Below are positions 5,686 through 14,001 of a stretch of 64,000 nucleotides of DNA, one piece after another. The notes beneath the pieces are model-generated. The model had not been told where the DNA came from. It ran no database searches and saw nothing but the letters and a program-made list of their open reading frames with translations. Location: contig NZ_RQZG01000001.1 of the NCBI RefSeq assembly GCF_003859805.1, positions 1 through 64,000 on the forward strand. The letters run 5' to 3'. The DNA comes from Arachnia propionica (lineage in GTDB: Bacteria; Actinomycetota; Actinomycetes; Propionibacteriales; Propionibacteriaceae). The position numbers and the translations under genes were made by a program. Position 1 is the stretch's first letter, and the number at the start of each line of letters is the position of its first letter.

Positions 5686-8739
<3,054 letters not shown>

Positions 8740-9182: not shown

Positions 9183-9297
9183 GCGCCACCCCTGGTCAGA
9201 AATGAGCAGAAAAAACGTTCACTGGCCGAAAGGTTGACAGAACCACGGGTTCATGCGGGTTTCGCGCCGAGGTGGCTGGCCGAAGGGTGGGGTGCAA

Positions 9298-9318
9298 GCC
9301 TCAACCTTTGGTTGAGGC
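9298..9318. repeat. Perfect inverted repeat upstream of Roadblock operon
   Basis: GCCTCAACC-TTT-GGTTGAGGC is a perfect 9-bp inverted repeat with a three-base centre. It sits two bases before a TTGACA (9321-9326) and about 90 bases before the Roadblock start. With no T run after it, an operator is more likely than a terminator. Confidence 0.6.
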
Positions 9319-9320
9319 TG

Positions 9321-9409: not shown

Positions 9410-9778
9410 ATGTCCAGGATTGATCAGATCGAACAGTTGCTCAAGCGGCTCGTCGCTCTCACCCCGGATCTGGAGGGGGCAATCCTCGTCACCCTCGACG
9501 GCCTGCCGATTGCCTCGGCGCTGGCCGGAGGGACCGACGAGGACCGCGTCGCCGCCATGGGGGCCGCAGCACTCGCCACCGGATCACGCACGGTGAGCGA
9601 GCTCGCCCGCGGTGAGCTGGAGCAGGTGCTGGTCAAGGGCAGCGAGGGCTACATCGTGCACATCGCCGCCGGTCGAGAGGCCGTTCTCATGGGCATCTCC
9701 AACGGGCTGGCCAAGCTCGGGATGATCCTGTTCGAGATGAAGTCCACGGCCAAGGAACTGGCCCGCGAACTCGCATGA
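9410..9778 (+). CDS. Roadblock/LC7 domain protein
   Basis: The 122-residue protein is a single Roadblock/LC7 domain (MglB-like fold). It opens with an amphipathic helix, then LEGAILVTLDGLPIASAL, a long middle helix (AAMGAAALATGSRTVSELA) and the EQVLVKGSEGYIVHIAAG beta region. In bacteria such proteins form dimers that bind or regulate small GTPases or serve as signalling scaffolds. No MglA-like GTPase gene is in the window. ATG 9410 follows GAAGGAAG. The stop overlaps the next start (ATGA), so it is translationally coupled to the PAS gene. Confidence 0.88.
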   Translation: MSRIDQIEQLLKRLVALTPDLEGAILVTLDGLPIASALAGGTDEDRVAAMGAAALATGSRTVSELARGELEQVLVKGSEGYIVHIAAGREAVLMGISNGLAKLGMILFEMKSTAKELARELA

Positions 9779-10257
9779 TCCACATGGAGGACATGACCTG
9801 CGAGGGCGAAGCCCAGCAATGGACCTACCACGACGGCACGAGCCGTCGGGTGGTCGTGACCGATGTGGAGACCCTCTTCCCCTCAGGCGAACTGATCGTC
9901 TCCCAGACCGACCGTGACGGGATCATCACCACCTGCAACGACGCCTTCGTGCTCATGTCGGGTTTCGAGAAGCACCAGCTCATCGGTGCGCCGCACTCCA
10001 TCCTGCGCCACCCTGACATGCCGCGGGCTGCCTTCGCGGACCTGTGGAACACCGTGAACCAGGGCAAACGCTGGTCCGGATACGTGAAGAACCTCCGTGC
10101 CGACGGTGGGTTCTACTGGGTCTACGCCACGGTGATCCCGAAGATCCGTGGTGGCGAGATCGTCGGGCACACCTCGGTGCGACGTGAGCCGTCGCGTGAC
10201 AAGGTCGCCGAGATGTCAGCCATCTACCGGCAGATGATCCTGGACGAGGGGCGTTGA
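9775..10257 (+). CDS. Stand-alone Aer-like FAD-binding PAS protein
   Basis: The 160-residue protein is one PAS domain closely resembling the N-terminal sensor of the aerotaxis receptor Aer. The FAD-pocket signature RHPDMPRAAFADLW (R78, H79, D81, W91) and N55 correspond to the Aer residues RHPDMP...ADMW and N34. The WSGYVKN and YWVYATVIP strands also match. Unlike Aer it has no membrane anchor, HAMP or methyl-accepting domain, so its output must pass to another protein. The start overlaps the Roadblock stop codon, and the next gene begins three bases after its own stop. The expected role is a cytosolic redox sensor. Confidence 0.88.
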   Translation: MIHMEDMTCEGEAQQWTYHDGTSRRVVVTDVETLFPSGELIVSQTDRDGIITTCNDAFVLMSGFEKHQLIGAPHSILRHPDMPRAAFADLWNTVNQGKRWSGYVKNLRADGGFYWVYATVIPKIRGGEIVGHTSVRREPSRDKVAEMSAIYRQMILDEGR

Positions 10258-10258
10258 G

Positions 10259-11035
10259 ATGAGCATGCACTTCGCCATCAGTCCTGACGTGAACATCAAG
10301 AACGTCACCGACTGGTTCATCCTCAACACCAAGGTGCAGCGGATCACCGGACTGGCGTTCACCCCGACCGCCTACACCGACTTCGCGGATCTGCACGCCG
10401 CTTTCGAGGACGGTCGAGCGGACGTGGTCTACGCGAACGCGGCAGACACCGCATACCTCGTGCGTGACAAGGGCTATCTTCCGGTGGCCTGGGCGCGAGG
10501 GATGGCCAAGGAGGCCGTGGTCGCGGTCTCCGAGGAGAGTGACATCACCGATGTCGCGAGCCTCAAGGGCCCACTCACCGTGGCGGCGACAGATGCCCCG
10601 GACGTGGAACGGGTGTGCCGCATCATGCTCGAACCGGCCGACATCGGCTACCGGGACCTGGAGATGACCATCCGCCCGAATCCGGTGCTCGTGGCGAAGG
10701 CCCTCATCCAGGGGCACGCCCAGGTCGGTTTCTTCCCGCAGGACGCCTACGACGAGCTCTCGTCGATGGTCCGGATGCAGCTGCGTGAGCTGGTGCGCAG
10801 CCGGATCTACGTGGTGCGCAGCAGCCTGCTCGCCAGCCCGCAGCTGGCCGACCACGTCGAGACCCTCTGGCGAGGACTCGACGACCTGGCCAAGGGAGGC
10901 ACCAACGATGACCTGCTCGCCGCTCTGGGCGCCCCCAACGGGTGGGAACGGCTGGAGCAGGAGGACACCGAGTTCATGATCGACCTCATGGACGCACTGT
11001 CCCAGGACGGTGAGGAACCCCGCCGCCGAGCCTGA
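10259..11035 (+). CDS. Cytosolic PhnD-like periplasmic-binding-fold protein
   Basis: The 258-residue protein has the type 2 periplasmic-binding fold of the phosphate/phosphonate (PhnD) group: YTDFADLHAAFEDGRADVVYANAADTAYL, then DVASLKG and a C-terminal lobe with ALIQGHAQVGFF. It has no signal peptide or lipobox at all; the first strand begins at residue 3. It therefore probably acts in the cytoplasm as a small-ligand receptor and not in transport, and no permease or ATPase gene is nearby. It is the last gene of the Roadblock-PAS operon. The ligand cannot be told from the sequence. Confidence 0.8.
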   Translation: MSMHFAISPDVNIKNVTDWFILNTKVQRITGLAFTPTAYTDFADLHAAFEDGRADVVYANAADTAYLVRDKGYLPVAWARGMAKEAVVAVSEESDITDVASLKGPLTVAATDAPDVERVCRIMLEPADIGYRDLEMTIRPNPVLVAKALIQGHAQVGFFPQDAYDELSSMVRMQLRELVRSRIYVVRSSLLASPQLADHVETLWRGLDDLAKGGTNDDLLAALGAPNGWERLEQEDTEFMIDLMDALSQDGEEPRRRA

Positions 11036-11096: not shown

Positions 11097-12575
11097 TCAG
11101 GGACGATCCCCACCGGGTCCTCCGGGCCCTCCGCCGGGGCCCTGCATCCCACTGCGGTACTGGTTGGCCGCCACACTGCCCACCACGGTGCCGTCGAGGC
11201 TGACCCGGTAGGTGCCGTCCGGGCTGATTCCCGGACCGGAGTAGAGGACCGACGCGTACTGCTTGAGTGATGACTCCGTGGCGATGACGGTGCCCTGGGA
11301 GTCCAGGATCGAGACCTCACCCGTGGTGCTGCCTGCCAGCTCCGTGAACACGAATCCCTGGGTGGACTCCTTCGTGGGGGTCTCCGCCATCCCGGCGGAA
11401 CCGAGAGCCCACAGTTCACCGCCGGTCATGACCAGTCCCTCCTGCACGTCGATCGCCGCATTGCCGTCGTCGACCGGTCCGTGGACCACGACGGAGCCCC
11501 CGGAGATGGTGGCCGTGGCGTTGGAGTCGATGCCGTCACCCGCGGCGTCGATGGTCAGTGAACCGCCGGTGACGAACAGGCCGGTCGGGGCGTCGCCGGA
11601 GATGTTGACCCCGTCATCGGAGCTGGTCAGAGCGATCTCACCTCCTGCGATGACGATGGTCTGGGCCTCCATCGCCTCCACCGAACCGGTGACCGTGACG
11701 GTGGCGTCGGAGATGGCGACATCGGTGAAACCCTTGATCCCGTCGTCACCGGCGTTCACGGTGAGCTCACCACCCGAGAGGAGGACGAAACCACGTTCCG
11801 TGTCGGTGTCGTTGTCGGCCTTCACCCCGTCCCCTGCGGCTTCGACGACCACCGTGCCGCCCTCGATGACGACGTAGTCCTTGCCACGGATCCCGTCATC
11901 GACAGCGGTGACCTCGATGGTGCCGCCAGCGATCACCAGGCCGTCAGCGGAGTTGATGGCGTCATTGTGGTTGCCGACCACCTTCAAGGTTCCGGAGCCC
12001 GTGATGGTCAGGTCACTGGCGGAGTCGATGGCTGATGACGGTGCGGTCTCGGAGGTGTCGGTGTACCCGGTGGCGTCACCCACGGTGTTGGTGGAGCCCG
12101 CTGCCAGGATCACGGTCACCTCATCCGCGGTGCTGACCACCAGAGGAGAACCCTCGGGGTTGTCGAGGTCCACACCGTCCAGGATCAGCTGGACGTCCTG
12201 ACCGTCGGCCGCCACGGTGATCTGGCCCGAGAACGAGCCGGTGAGTCGGTAGGTACCGCCCGTGGTGATGGTCACGTCCGACTCCGCGATCTCCACACCC
12301 GAGCCGGATGTGGTGGCCGTGGTGCCGTCGAGGGTGACCTCCACCACTGATGCCTCATCCCAGGTGGCGTCCTGGGCGGTGTGGTGGGACTCCTGGTTGG
12401 CGGCGAGCAGGGAGGTCAACTGATCGTTCCCGCTCGTGGTGGAATCGGTCTGCACGATGCTTCGTCCTGCACCGGAGGTGGACGCTGTCGTGGTGTCCGA
12501 CGTCGAGGCCTGACAGCCGACGAGACCGGCTGCCAGGGCGAGGGAGGCGAGTCCGAGGCGGAGTGTGGTGTTCAT
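11097..12575 (-). CDS. Lipoprotein with DUF4353 (Cthe_2159-like) carbohydrate-binding beta-helix
   Basis: The 492-residue product starts at ATG 12575, preceded by AAAGGAC. It has a lipoprotein signal (LVGC, Cys21) and then a Thr/Ser-rich stretch. The body is a ladder of short repeats such as GGTIEVTAVDDGIRGKD and GGSLTIDAAGDGIDSNA, the aspartate-rich parallel beta-helix of the DUF4353/Cthe_2159 family. One founding member binds acidic polysaccharide and calcium. The C-terminus is glycine/proline rich. It is the third gene of an operon with a VTC-domain gene, 10 bases downstream of it. The role is probably polymer or calcium binding at the cell surface. Confidence 0.87.
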   Translation of the reverse strand: MNTTLRLGLASLALAAGLVGCQASTSDTTTASTSGAGRSIVQTDSTTSGNDQLTSLLAANQESHHTAQDATWDEASVVEVTLDGTTATTSGSGVEIAESDVTITTGGTYRLTGSFSGQITVAADGQDVQLILDGVDLDNPEGSPLVVSTADEVTVILAAGSTNTVGDATGYTDTSETAPSSAIDSASDLTITGSGTLKVVGNHNDAINSADGLVIAGGTIEVTAVDDGIRGKDYVVIEGGTVVVEAAGDGVKADNDTDTERGFVLLSGGELTVNAGDDGIKGFTDVAISDATVTVTGSVEAMEAQTIVIAGGEIALTSSDDGVNISGDAPTGLFVTGGSLTIDAAGDGIDSNATATISGGSVVVHGPVDDGNAAIDVQEGLVMTGGELWALGSAGMAETPTKESTQGFVFTELAGSTTGEVSILDSQGTVIATESSLKQYASVLYSGPGISPDGTYRVSLDGTVVGSVAANQYRSGMQGPGGGPGGPGGDRP

Positions 12576-12585
12576 TGTCGTCCTT

Positions 12586-13323
12586 TCAGAAGTGACGGGT
12601 GAGGGTGGAGTGCCAACGATTGGTCGGCAGTTCAGGGTGGAGCGCGGCCAGCCCGGTCGCGTACTTCGAGATGCGACCTTGACGGTGCCCGGCGCGCCAG
12701 AGGAGCCGGTCCATCGCACCGGGGGAGGAGGCGGACTTCGTCTCGATGATGCTCAGTTCCGGTCGGTGCAGGACCTGTCCTGCACCGACCCAGGTCAGGT
12801 CCTGGTCCAGGGTGATCCGGGTGGCGCCGTCAGGGCTGAGCAGTGTGGTGCGGGTGTAGCTCGTCCCCAGACTGGGCCGCAACCATGACGGACGAATTCC
12901 GTGGACCCCGCCGGCGGTCAGGCATGAGCTGATGAAGTCGAACTGGCCGGGGGCAAGGGAGTGCAGGGAGTCACCGACGTGGGGGAGACGTCGCTTGATG
13001 GTCCTTCCCCGATGGCTGGTCTTGACCTCGAGGAAGACCTCACCCGAGTCGCAGTAGTGTCGAAGACGCACCTTGAACCGGGTGGGGCGACCACGAGCGG
13101 CCAGCAGGTAGGAGTCCCGTGCCGGGGTGTCGAAATAGACGGTGCTGTAGTGGAAGCTCTGTCTGCCATCGATCTCCAGCACCCGGGTCCTCGCTGGGAG
13201 CAGCTCGATGAGGGGGTGGACGGCACTCAGCGCGAGCGGGTACTTACGGTCCACACGGTCGAGCAGCTGAGAGGTGGAGTTCAGCTCGGTGAGGCTGACC
13301 GGGGCCAGGGCATCGAGGCGCAT
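12586..13323 (-). CDS. VTC domain protein (polyphosphate polymerase-like)
   Basis: The 245-residue protein is a stand-alone VTC domain. Eukaryotic relatives make polyphosphate from ATP in a basic tunnel. The family residues are visible in order: DRKYPL near residue 25, FHYSTVYFDTP, RFKVRLRHY, EVFLEVKTSHRGRTIKRRLP, ITLDQDL and the terminal IIETKS. Many Arg/Lys and the E/D metal ligands are intact. It starts inside the stop of the DUF4956 gene (TGATG), so the two are coupled. Known bacterial neighbourhoods pair this domain with DUF4956, CotH kinase or DUF4353 proteins, as here. Whether it polymerises phosphate in this setting is not shown. Confidence 0.88.
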   Translation of the reverse strand: MRLDALAPVSLTELNSTSQLLDRVDRKYPLALSAVHPLIELLPARTRVLEIDGRQSFHYSTVYFDTPARDSYLLAARGRPTRFKVRLRHYCDSGEVFLEVKTSHRGRTIKRRLPHVGDSLHSLAPGQFDFISSCLTAGGVHGIRPSWLRPSLGTSYTRTTLLSPDGATRITLDQDLTWVGAGQVLHRPELSIIETKSASSPGAMDRLLWRAGHRQGRISKYATGLAALHPELPTNRWHSTLTRHF

Positions 13324-13892
13324 CAGAGGACCTCCACCCCGGGACGGGCGGTGAGGTGGGCACCGGGTCGATGGCGCACCTCGGCGAGTGTCGAGTCATT
13401 GACGAAGTCCACCCGTTGCACGTTCACCCCGAGGATCCGCCCACCGAGTCGGTTCGCCAGTTCGTGACGCAGCTCCTGGTCATCGGTGATGGCTCGGTCG
13501 AGATGGATGATCTCCCGGCGGGTCGCGGTGCGGAACGAGGGGCGATCCACGACCGCCAGCACTGCGACGATGACGCCCATGAGGATGTAACTGAGCACGG
13601 AGTTGGACAGGCCGCCGATCAATCCGAGGGCCAGGGCGCTGAAGTAGTAGGCGACCTCGTGCTGGGCGAGCTCGTCGGAGCGCAACCGGATGATCGACAA
13701 CACCCCGAACAGGCCGAGTCCCAGTCCGGCTGCGACCTCACTGCCCGACAGCACGATGGACACGGCCATCACCCCGATGTTGACCCCGAGGTAGGCCACC
13801 GCGAGGTCGCGACGGTGGTGTCTGGGAAGGTAGACGGCGAAGACGAGAACTGAGATGGCGATGACGTTGGCGAGATGGGGCAGGTGTTCCAT
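13323..13892 (-). CDS. DUF4956 membrane protein
   Basis: The 189-residue protein has an N-terminal membrane region of about four helices and a soluble C-terminal tail of roughly 70 residues. The LGLFGVLSIIRLRSDEL segment at the membrane edge is typical of DUF4956. ATG 13892 is chosen because it begins directly before the first helix; a GTG at 13937 would add 15 polar residues. It is the first gene of the operon with the VTC and DUF4353 genes. It probably provides the membrane platform for the VTC protein. The biochemical function is unknown. Confidence 0.82.
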   Translation of the reverse strand: MEHLPHLANVIAISVLVFAVYLPRHHRRDLAVAYLGVNIGVMAVSIVLSGSEVAAGLGLGLFGVLSIIRLRSDELAQHEVAYYFSALALGLIGGLSNSVLSYILMGVIVAVLAVVDRPSFRTATRREIIHLDRAITDDQELRHELANRLGGRILGVNVQRVDFVNDSTLAEVRHRPGAHLTARPGVEVL

Positions 13893-14001
13893 GACCGGGC
13901 CTTCGGTGATCGGGCGAGGGCACTTCCCTCGGTTCACACACCATCTCGCCAGCCCGATCTGTGTGGTTCCTGTGAGGCCAGGATGACTCAGGTGTGAGTC
14001 G

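Follow-up and report, generated by a model that had tools for sequence, protein, structure and literature searches.

A Roadblock, Aer-like PAS and cytosolic PhnD-like gene module in Arachnia propionica, with relatives in Group 3 GTPase operons of Gammaproteobacteria

Gene order and flanking features

The window, by which we mean the whole stretch of 64,000 nt analysed here, covers positions 1 to 64,000 of the forward strand of contig NZ_RQZG01000001.1 of Arachnia propionica (GCF_003859805.1), from a genome of 3.4 Mb in 77 contigs. Three genes follow one another on its plus strand: an MglB-like Roadblock/LC7 protein of 122 aa (9410..9778; PF03259, 2.1e-16), an Aer-like PAS protein of 160 aa with no output domain (9775..10257; PF08447, 3.7e-12), and a cytosolic PhnD-like binding protein of 258 aa (10259..11035; PF12974, 4e-21). 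The Roadblock and PAS genes overlap by 4 bases (ATGA) and a single base separates PAS from PhnD, bearing out the tight three-gene operon proposed in a preliminary description of this DNA. PAS homologues outside Propionibacteriaceae start at the residue equivalent to M4 of the window protein (base 9784). The ATG at 9775 may therefore not be the true start, which may instead be 9784.

Upstream of the trio lie an ORF without a Pfam match and a fused gene that, from our own reading of its frame, we take to be of the glyQS type. The frame (5686-8739) is 1017 aa long and looks by eye like a fused alpha and beta glycyl-tRNA synthetase, an unusual arrangement. Of 13 other loci tested, some of them on short contigs, 3 have this neighbour. 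Downstream, on the opposite strand, comes a Cthe_2159 family gene, then two ORFs that by eye resemble a VTC-type and a DUF4956-type protein (11097-13937, minus strand).

A perfect 18-bp inverted repeat with a 4-base loop (11046-11063/11068-11085) sits between the convergent genes, and the stretch that carries it folds at -46.6 kcal/mol versus a shuffle mean of -23.6. The preliminary description had called it a terminator closing the operon. The perfect repeat and the strong fold fit that view, but there is no T run and the repeat is absent from the list of a consensus terminator scanner; given these points and its position between convergent genes, it is only a likely terminator. At the other end of the operon, upstream of the Roadblock gene, a perfect 10-bp palindrome with a 3-base loop, AGCCTCAACC-TTT-GGTTGAGGCT (9297..9319), directly precedes a TTGACA that is a possible -35 box, and may serve as an operator. 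It has one match in the window versus 0.03 expected; it is almost intact in one related locus (L022) and decayed in two others (L023, L024).

Properties of the three proteins

The best PDB match of the PAS protein is the Aer PAS domain (8dik, 2.3e-33). Aer Arg57, His58 and Asp60 are stated to be needed for FAD (PMC2628428), and Aer His53, Asn85 and Arg115 contact the flavin (PMC9668731). In sequence order, Aer His53, Arg57, His58, Asp60, Asn85 and Arg115 correspond to window H74, R78, H79, D81, N106 and R136, at an offset of 21. Among 81 PAS proteins these residues are conserved in 80, 81, 81, 77, 81 and 81, respectively, D81 being changed in 4 of the 81, and W91 and W100 are invariant. The earlier statement that the protein keeps the FAD-pocket residues of Aer (R78, H79, D81 and W91) and has no output domain is thus upheld. 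Since all six checked flavin-site residues are kept, the window PAS protein likely binds FAD. CetB sets a precedent for a stand-alone protein of this kind, being itself an isolated Aer-like PAS protein that acts in trans (PMC2628428). The CetA/CetB system of Campylobacter jejuni likewise joins such a PAS protein to a partner, as described in that source, but the window PAS gene has no adjacent chemoreceptor gene and has Roadblock and PhnD-like partners instead.

The AlphaFold model of the PhnD-like protein has a mean pLDDT of 92, and both Foldseek and VIA-align group it with PtxB, XAC2383, ArrX and PhnD; the predicted structure shows a type II periplasmic-binding-protein fold. The protein has no signal peptide and begins at the first strand of its fold. 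No ABC transporter gene adjoins the trio, whose adjacent genes encode the glyQS-type protein, the ORF without a Pfam match and the Cthe_2159 protein. These results agree with the earlier claim of a cytosolic protein with neither signal peptide nor transporter beside it. PtxB, PhnD, ArrX and XAC2383 are periplasmic, and the window protein differs from them in being cytosolic, in having no adjacent transporter gene and in lacking the oxyanion motif of PtxB.

That motif, STS-H, holds the oxyanion in PtxB (PMC5700983). We tested for it as S124, T125, S126 and H155 of P. stutzeri PtxB and found it absent: a weak profile alignment (1.8e-4) sets the loop TDAPDV of the window protein against it, and where PtxB has its His the window protein has Pro, with His in 6 of 81 relatives. 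The 'anion-like' ligand of the preliminary description is left unsupported because this motif is missing. An oxyanion is weakened as a candidate, and the ligand is probably of another kind. The pocket itself seems to have been kept, as suggested by the conserved polar or acidic residues D10, N60, D63 and D115, the last of which lies in the TDAPDV loop and is kept in 76 of 81 PhnD proteins. Invariant in 81/81 are S8, P9, D10, W19, N23, T24, Q27, N60, L67, V68, R69, E85, E125, S168, S181 and I183, although all 80 loci used were found via two PhnD peptide patterns, EFMIDLM and a DWF..NT stretch, so that the conservation of those letters is partly selection.

The Roadblock protein scores 59.9 bits with Robl_LC7, versus a Pfam cut-off of 23, and belongs to that superfamily. 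The cvnB5 structure matches it at 1.4e-9. In having an MglB-like Roadblock in an actinobacterium the trio resembles the conservons (CvnA-D), but it has no adjacent kinase (CvnA), CvnC or CvnD gene. The genome also carries a second Roadblock gene (G000:C20:2701-2940; L113, L118), beside what by eye is an OmpA-like ORF.

Spread of the trio and the gammaproteobacterial operon

The PhnD family was scanned for in one genome per species across 84,980 species. The scan returned 415 stretches and 363 relatives, of which the best 80 by PhnD similarity were kept as loci. Alignments used 44 of 81 rows for PhnD, 42 of 81 for PAS, 42 of 75 for Roadblock, 20 of 55 for the GTPase and 23 of 57 for the receiver-like protein described below; the tree used 45 of 81. 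In HMM searches of these best 80 of 363 loci, the PAS gene adjoins PhnD in all 80 and stands directly before it, with gaps of at most 56 bases; one locus (L084) has a second PAS gene after PhnD. A Roadblock gene lies upstream in 74, and in the remaining six (L050, L051, L065, L087, L098 and L107) the HMM search found none near the PAS-PhnD pair. Within this best-80 set the PAS-PhnD pair is thus near-obligate, and a strain-specific oddity is ruled out. The preliminary description had proposed searching genomes for co-occurrence, and the trio proves to occur far beyond this strain, in very different bacteria.

Closer to the window, we searched 41 genomes: its own, 24 others of the genus and 16 from elsewhere in the order. 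All 9 with a PhnD gene belong to the genus (9 of its 25 genomes), and each of these 9 carriers has the three genes side by side. Contiguity in every carrier despite differing flanks argues for more than chance. Three weaker PAS matches fall in longer proteins (G006, G018, G017). In two genus genomes an Aer-like PAS domain was seen within a frame of ~470 to 500 aa (L020 493-1908, from G006:C101, and G018:C172). Some genomes are incomplete (G006, 87%; G008 and G014, 60%), and the first pass of the genome searches scores a limited candidate set, so misses are possible. The trio's nearest named relative is that of Arachnia propionica OH2822_COT-296. Codon differences to L025 fall mostly at third positions (Roadblock 58/71, PAS 65/112, PhnD 125/204).

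Of 396 genomes sampled from Actinomycetota at large, the window's own is the only one in which the PhnD family was found, so the family is not widespread in that phylum. In a concatenated tree of 45 rows, 12 come from the window's clade and form a single group (SH-aLRT 100). The single genome and the single clade suggest patchy gain or loss of the trio in this phylum. None of the three proteins had a match in PADLOC at E <= 0.01, which speaks against a role in anti-phage defence. On a Chthoniobacterales contig (L045 421-2966), a response regulator, a ParA-type ATPase and an ORF without a Pfam match precede the trio.

Most gammaproteobacterial loci hold a larger operon. Neighbour clustering identified four extra genes before the Roadblock gene, F6, F5, F4 and F3, which HMM searches found in 53, 57, 55 and 58 of the 80 loci, respectively. 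F6 (~244 aa) has no Pfam match over cut-off. F5 (~404 aa), which has no Pfam match, is receiver-like, with conserved D52, K90 and P91; its model (mean pLDDT 81.5) has a receiver-like fold, with a best E of 7.2e-3 at probability 1.00 and none under 0.001. F4 is a small GTPase of ~178 aa (PF03029 8.7e-13, Ras 7.5e-6) that carries GTPGQ and DAR motifs, the latter being DGR in 1 of 20 aligned sequences. It is upstream in 54 of 55 loci and downstream in L091, among the best 80 of 363. F3 (~216 aa) has a Roadblock domain; the single representative that was scanned scores 24.7 bits versus a cut-off of 23.

Wuichet and Sogaard-Andersen (2014, PMC4316618) describe Group 3 MglA systems as having a conserved receiver-like/winged-helix-like protein, an MglA homologue and either a single MglB homologue or a pair of them. 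The gammaproteobacterial loci match this description, sharing with it the GTPGQ/DAR GTPase, the receiver-like protein without a Pfam match and the second Roadblock. The main text of that source contains neither 'PAS' nor 'phosphonate'. As the loci match Group 3 operons and this main text is silent on both words, PAS and PhnD appear to form an input branch of Group 3 systems that had gone undescribed.

Co-occurrence was counted across the class that contains Methylomonas sp. LW13, in a sample of 321 genomes to which G041 belongs on account of its carrying the module. Of these, 17 have a PhnD match at E <= 1e-20, and 14 of the 17 are in the family proper (E <= 1e-78); the other three (G075, G221 and G328) have remote matches only (2.1e-57 and weaker), with no PAS or Roadblock gene within the 1.5 kb fetched around them. 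In G221, a 463-aa frame with a PhnD-like stretch (L136 1414-2802) was seen beside a frame at 986-1543 with a weak Roadblock match (9.5e-7). The PAS subfamily (E <= 1e-78) is present in 13 of the 321, each PAS gene being at most 150 bases from a PhnD gene (13/13), and the next-best PAS matches, at 4.5e-53, are in long proteins. The Group 3 GTPase is present in 59 of the 321 genomes: 13 of 14 with the PhnD family versus 46 of 307 others (Fisher p 1e-9, uncorrected for kinship). In all 13 the GTPase and PhnD genes lie within 2.8 kb on the same contig. The PhnD-family exception without the GTPase, G195, has a second PhnD-like gene in its operon, as does L055. The only PhnD-family genome without a PAS match, G365, has internal stops in its PhnD and GTPase stretches. 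The second PhnD-like genes lie at L055 6349-7080 and G195:C67:35519-36208, and the GTPase was not found in either genome.

The Roadblock subfamily profile matches 46 of the 321 genomes versus 13 for PAS. This wider range indicates that the Roadblock is the common part and PAS-PhnD the add-on. In 5 of the 80 loci a protoglobin-like gene was also seen in the operon beside the Roadblock gene (L063 6418-6978, L069 2569-3180, L072 2231-2791, L090 7084-7428, L110 6734-7288). All three tested (L063, L072, L110) match PF11563, at 3e-23 to 5e-27 or 7e-21, and the L110 protein matches globins of globin-coupled sensors. A protoglobin beside the Roadblock fits an oxygen or redox theme. A comparable case is HGbRL of Methylacidiphilum, a globin-Roadblock fusion (PMC4476040). 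Both join a gas-binding sensor domain to a Roadblock; HGbRL differs in having a globin in place of PAS and in being fused, and in the part of that source drawn on here no PhnD-like protein is mentioned.

The window's genus differs from the Group 3 systems in having the trio without such a GTPase. The Group 3 GTPase profile found nothing in 25 genus genomes at E <= 1e-3, so the MglA-family GTPase with GTPGQ and DAR that marks Group 3 was not found in the genus, and a single-protein GTPase search at E <= 10 found nothing in the window's own genome. One of the 16 order genomes matches the profile at 7e-31, so the search is able to detect such GTPases. No receiver-like protein match lies beside the window trio. 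The MglA-like GTPase partner guessed at in the preliminary description is therefore found in Gammaproteobacteria but not in the window's own genus. PilT (TIGR01420), the one pilus component searched for, is present in 0 of 9 trio carriers and 1 of 16 other genus genomes, weakening the case for type IV pilus control in the genus.

A model for the module and its rivals

We have high confidence that the three-gene module is real and serves in signalling. The explanation that we prefer, at a probability of roughly 0.6, is that it is a cytosolic input module for redox state and a ligand that acts on an MglB-like Roadblock, with a Group 3 GTPase as output in Gammaproteobacteria. We infer FAD binding, ligand binding, docking on the Roadblock and an effect on the GTPase. 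The PAS protein would bind FAD and report the cellular redox state. The PhnD-like protein would close around a small molecule inside the cell, one that is probably no oxyanion. The two proteins would dock on the MglB-type Roadblock dimer and alter its handling of its partner. In Gammaproteobacteria, the dimer would hand this state to the Group 3 MglA-type GTPase and the receiver-like protein. Because both come from the operon that encodes the module, redox and metabolite would determine the state of the GTPase through it. In the window's genus, where the GTPase is absent, the Roadblock would act on some other partner. Several observations count against this explanation: the trio without the GTPase (in the genus, in L055 and in G195), the six loci without a Roadblock, the Roadblock subfamily without PAS-PhnD, and the change of D81 in some PAS proteins.

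A bolder version holds that Propionibacteriaceae have a GTPase-free Roadblock device, in which an MglB-like dimer takes its input from a flavin PAS and a ligand receptor of the cytosol and has been re-wired to a different effector. In Gammaproteobacteria that oxidise methane or sulfur, the same module would drive the Group 3 MglA GTPase, in some of them alongside a haem globin. We put this version forward tentatively, with somewhat more doubt than belief.

Instead of re-wiring, the genus might have a diverged or other-family small GTPase encoded elsewhere, and the trio would then be part of a conventional Roadblock-GTPase system with genes that have become separated. Most Roadblock proteins regulate GTPases and many MglB homologues are uncoupled from MglA (PMC4316618), and the second Roadblock gene in the window's genome points the same way. 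However, the profile that detected a GTPase in the order found none in the genus, Rup and the like lying outside that profile, and the permissive single-protein search was empty, leaving this reading unlikely.

It is more doubtful still that PAS and PhnD are the true signalling pair and the Roadblock a mere neighbour or scaffold. The constancy of the pair in the best 80 of 363 loci, six of which lack the Roadblock, and the close tracking of PAS with PhnD in the 321 genomes, where the Roadblock subfamily is broader, are what such a pair would leave. Yet 74 of the same 80 loci have the Roadblock gene upstream, in the window it shares bases with PAS, and in five loci the protoglobin gene likewise lies beside the Roadblock. 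Finally, a trio with no signalling function, for example in the cytosolic handling or storage of a cofactor or metabolite, would suit the lack of an output domain or known partner in the window's genus, but is highly improbable with an Aer-type PAS, a Roadblock, a receiver-like protein and a GTPase, all signalling parts, in one operon.

Under the preferred reading of an input module acting on a Roadblock, the parts are of known kinds; what appears to be new is how they are combined and how the set is linked to Group 3 systems. We found no paper on the trio among openly licensed PMC papers, in line with the preliminary remark that no described system has this exact set. What feeds into bacterial MglA-type GTPases outside Myxococcus and the conservons is a long-standing question. 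A flavin PAS and a cytosolic binding protein, joined in some genomes by a protoglobin, are the candidate inputs that the operon offers for Group 3 systems. The window's genus, which naturally has the input side and the Roadblock without the Group 3 GTPase, would serve to test whether a Roadblock can signal another way. As a lead only, the orphan mglB-3 of Snodgrassella, whose genome also has a Group 3 mgl operon, encodes a 121-aa Roadblock away from mglA, and mutation of mglB-3 affected colonisation (PMC11112851).
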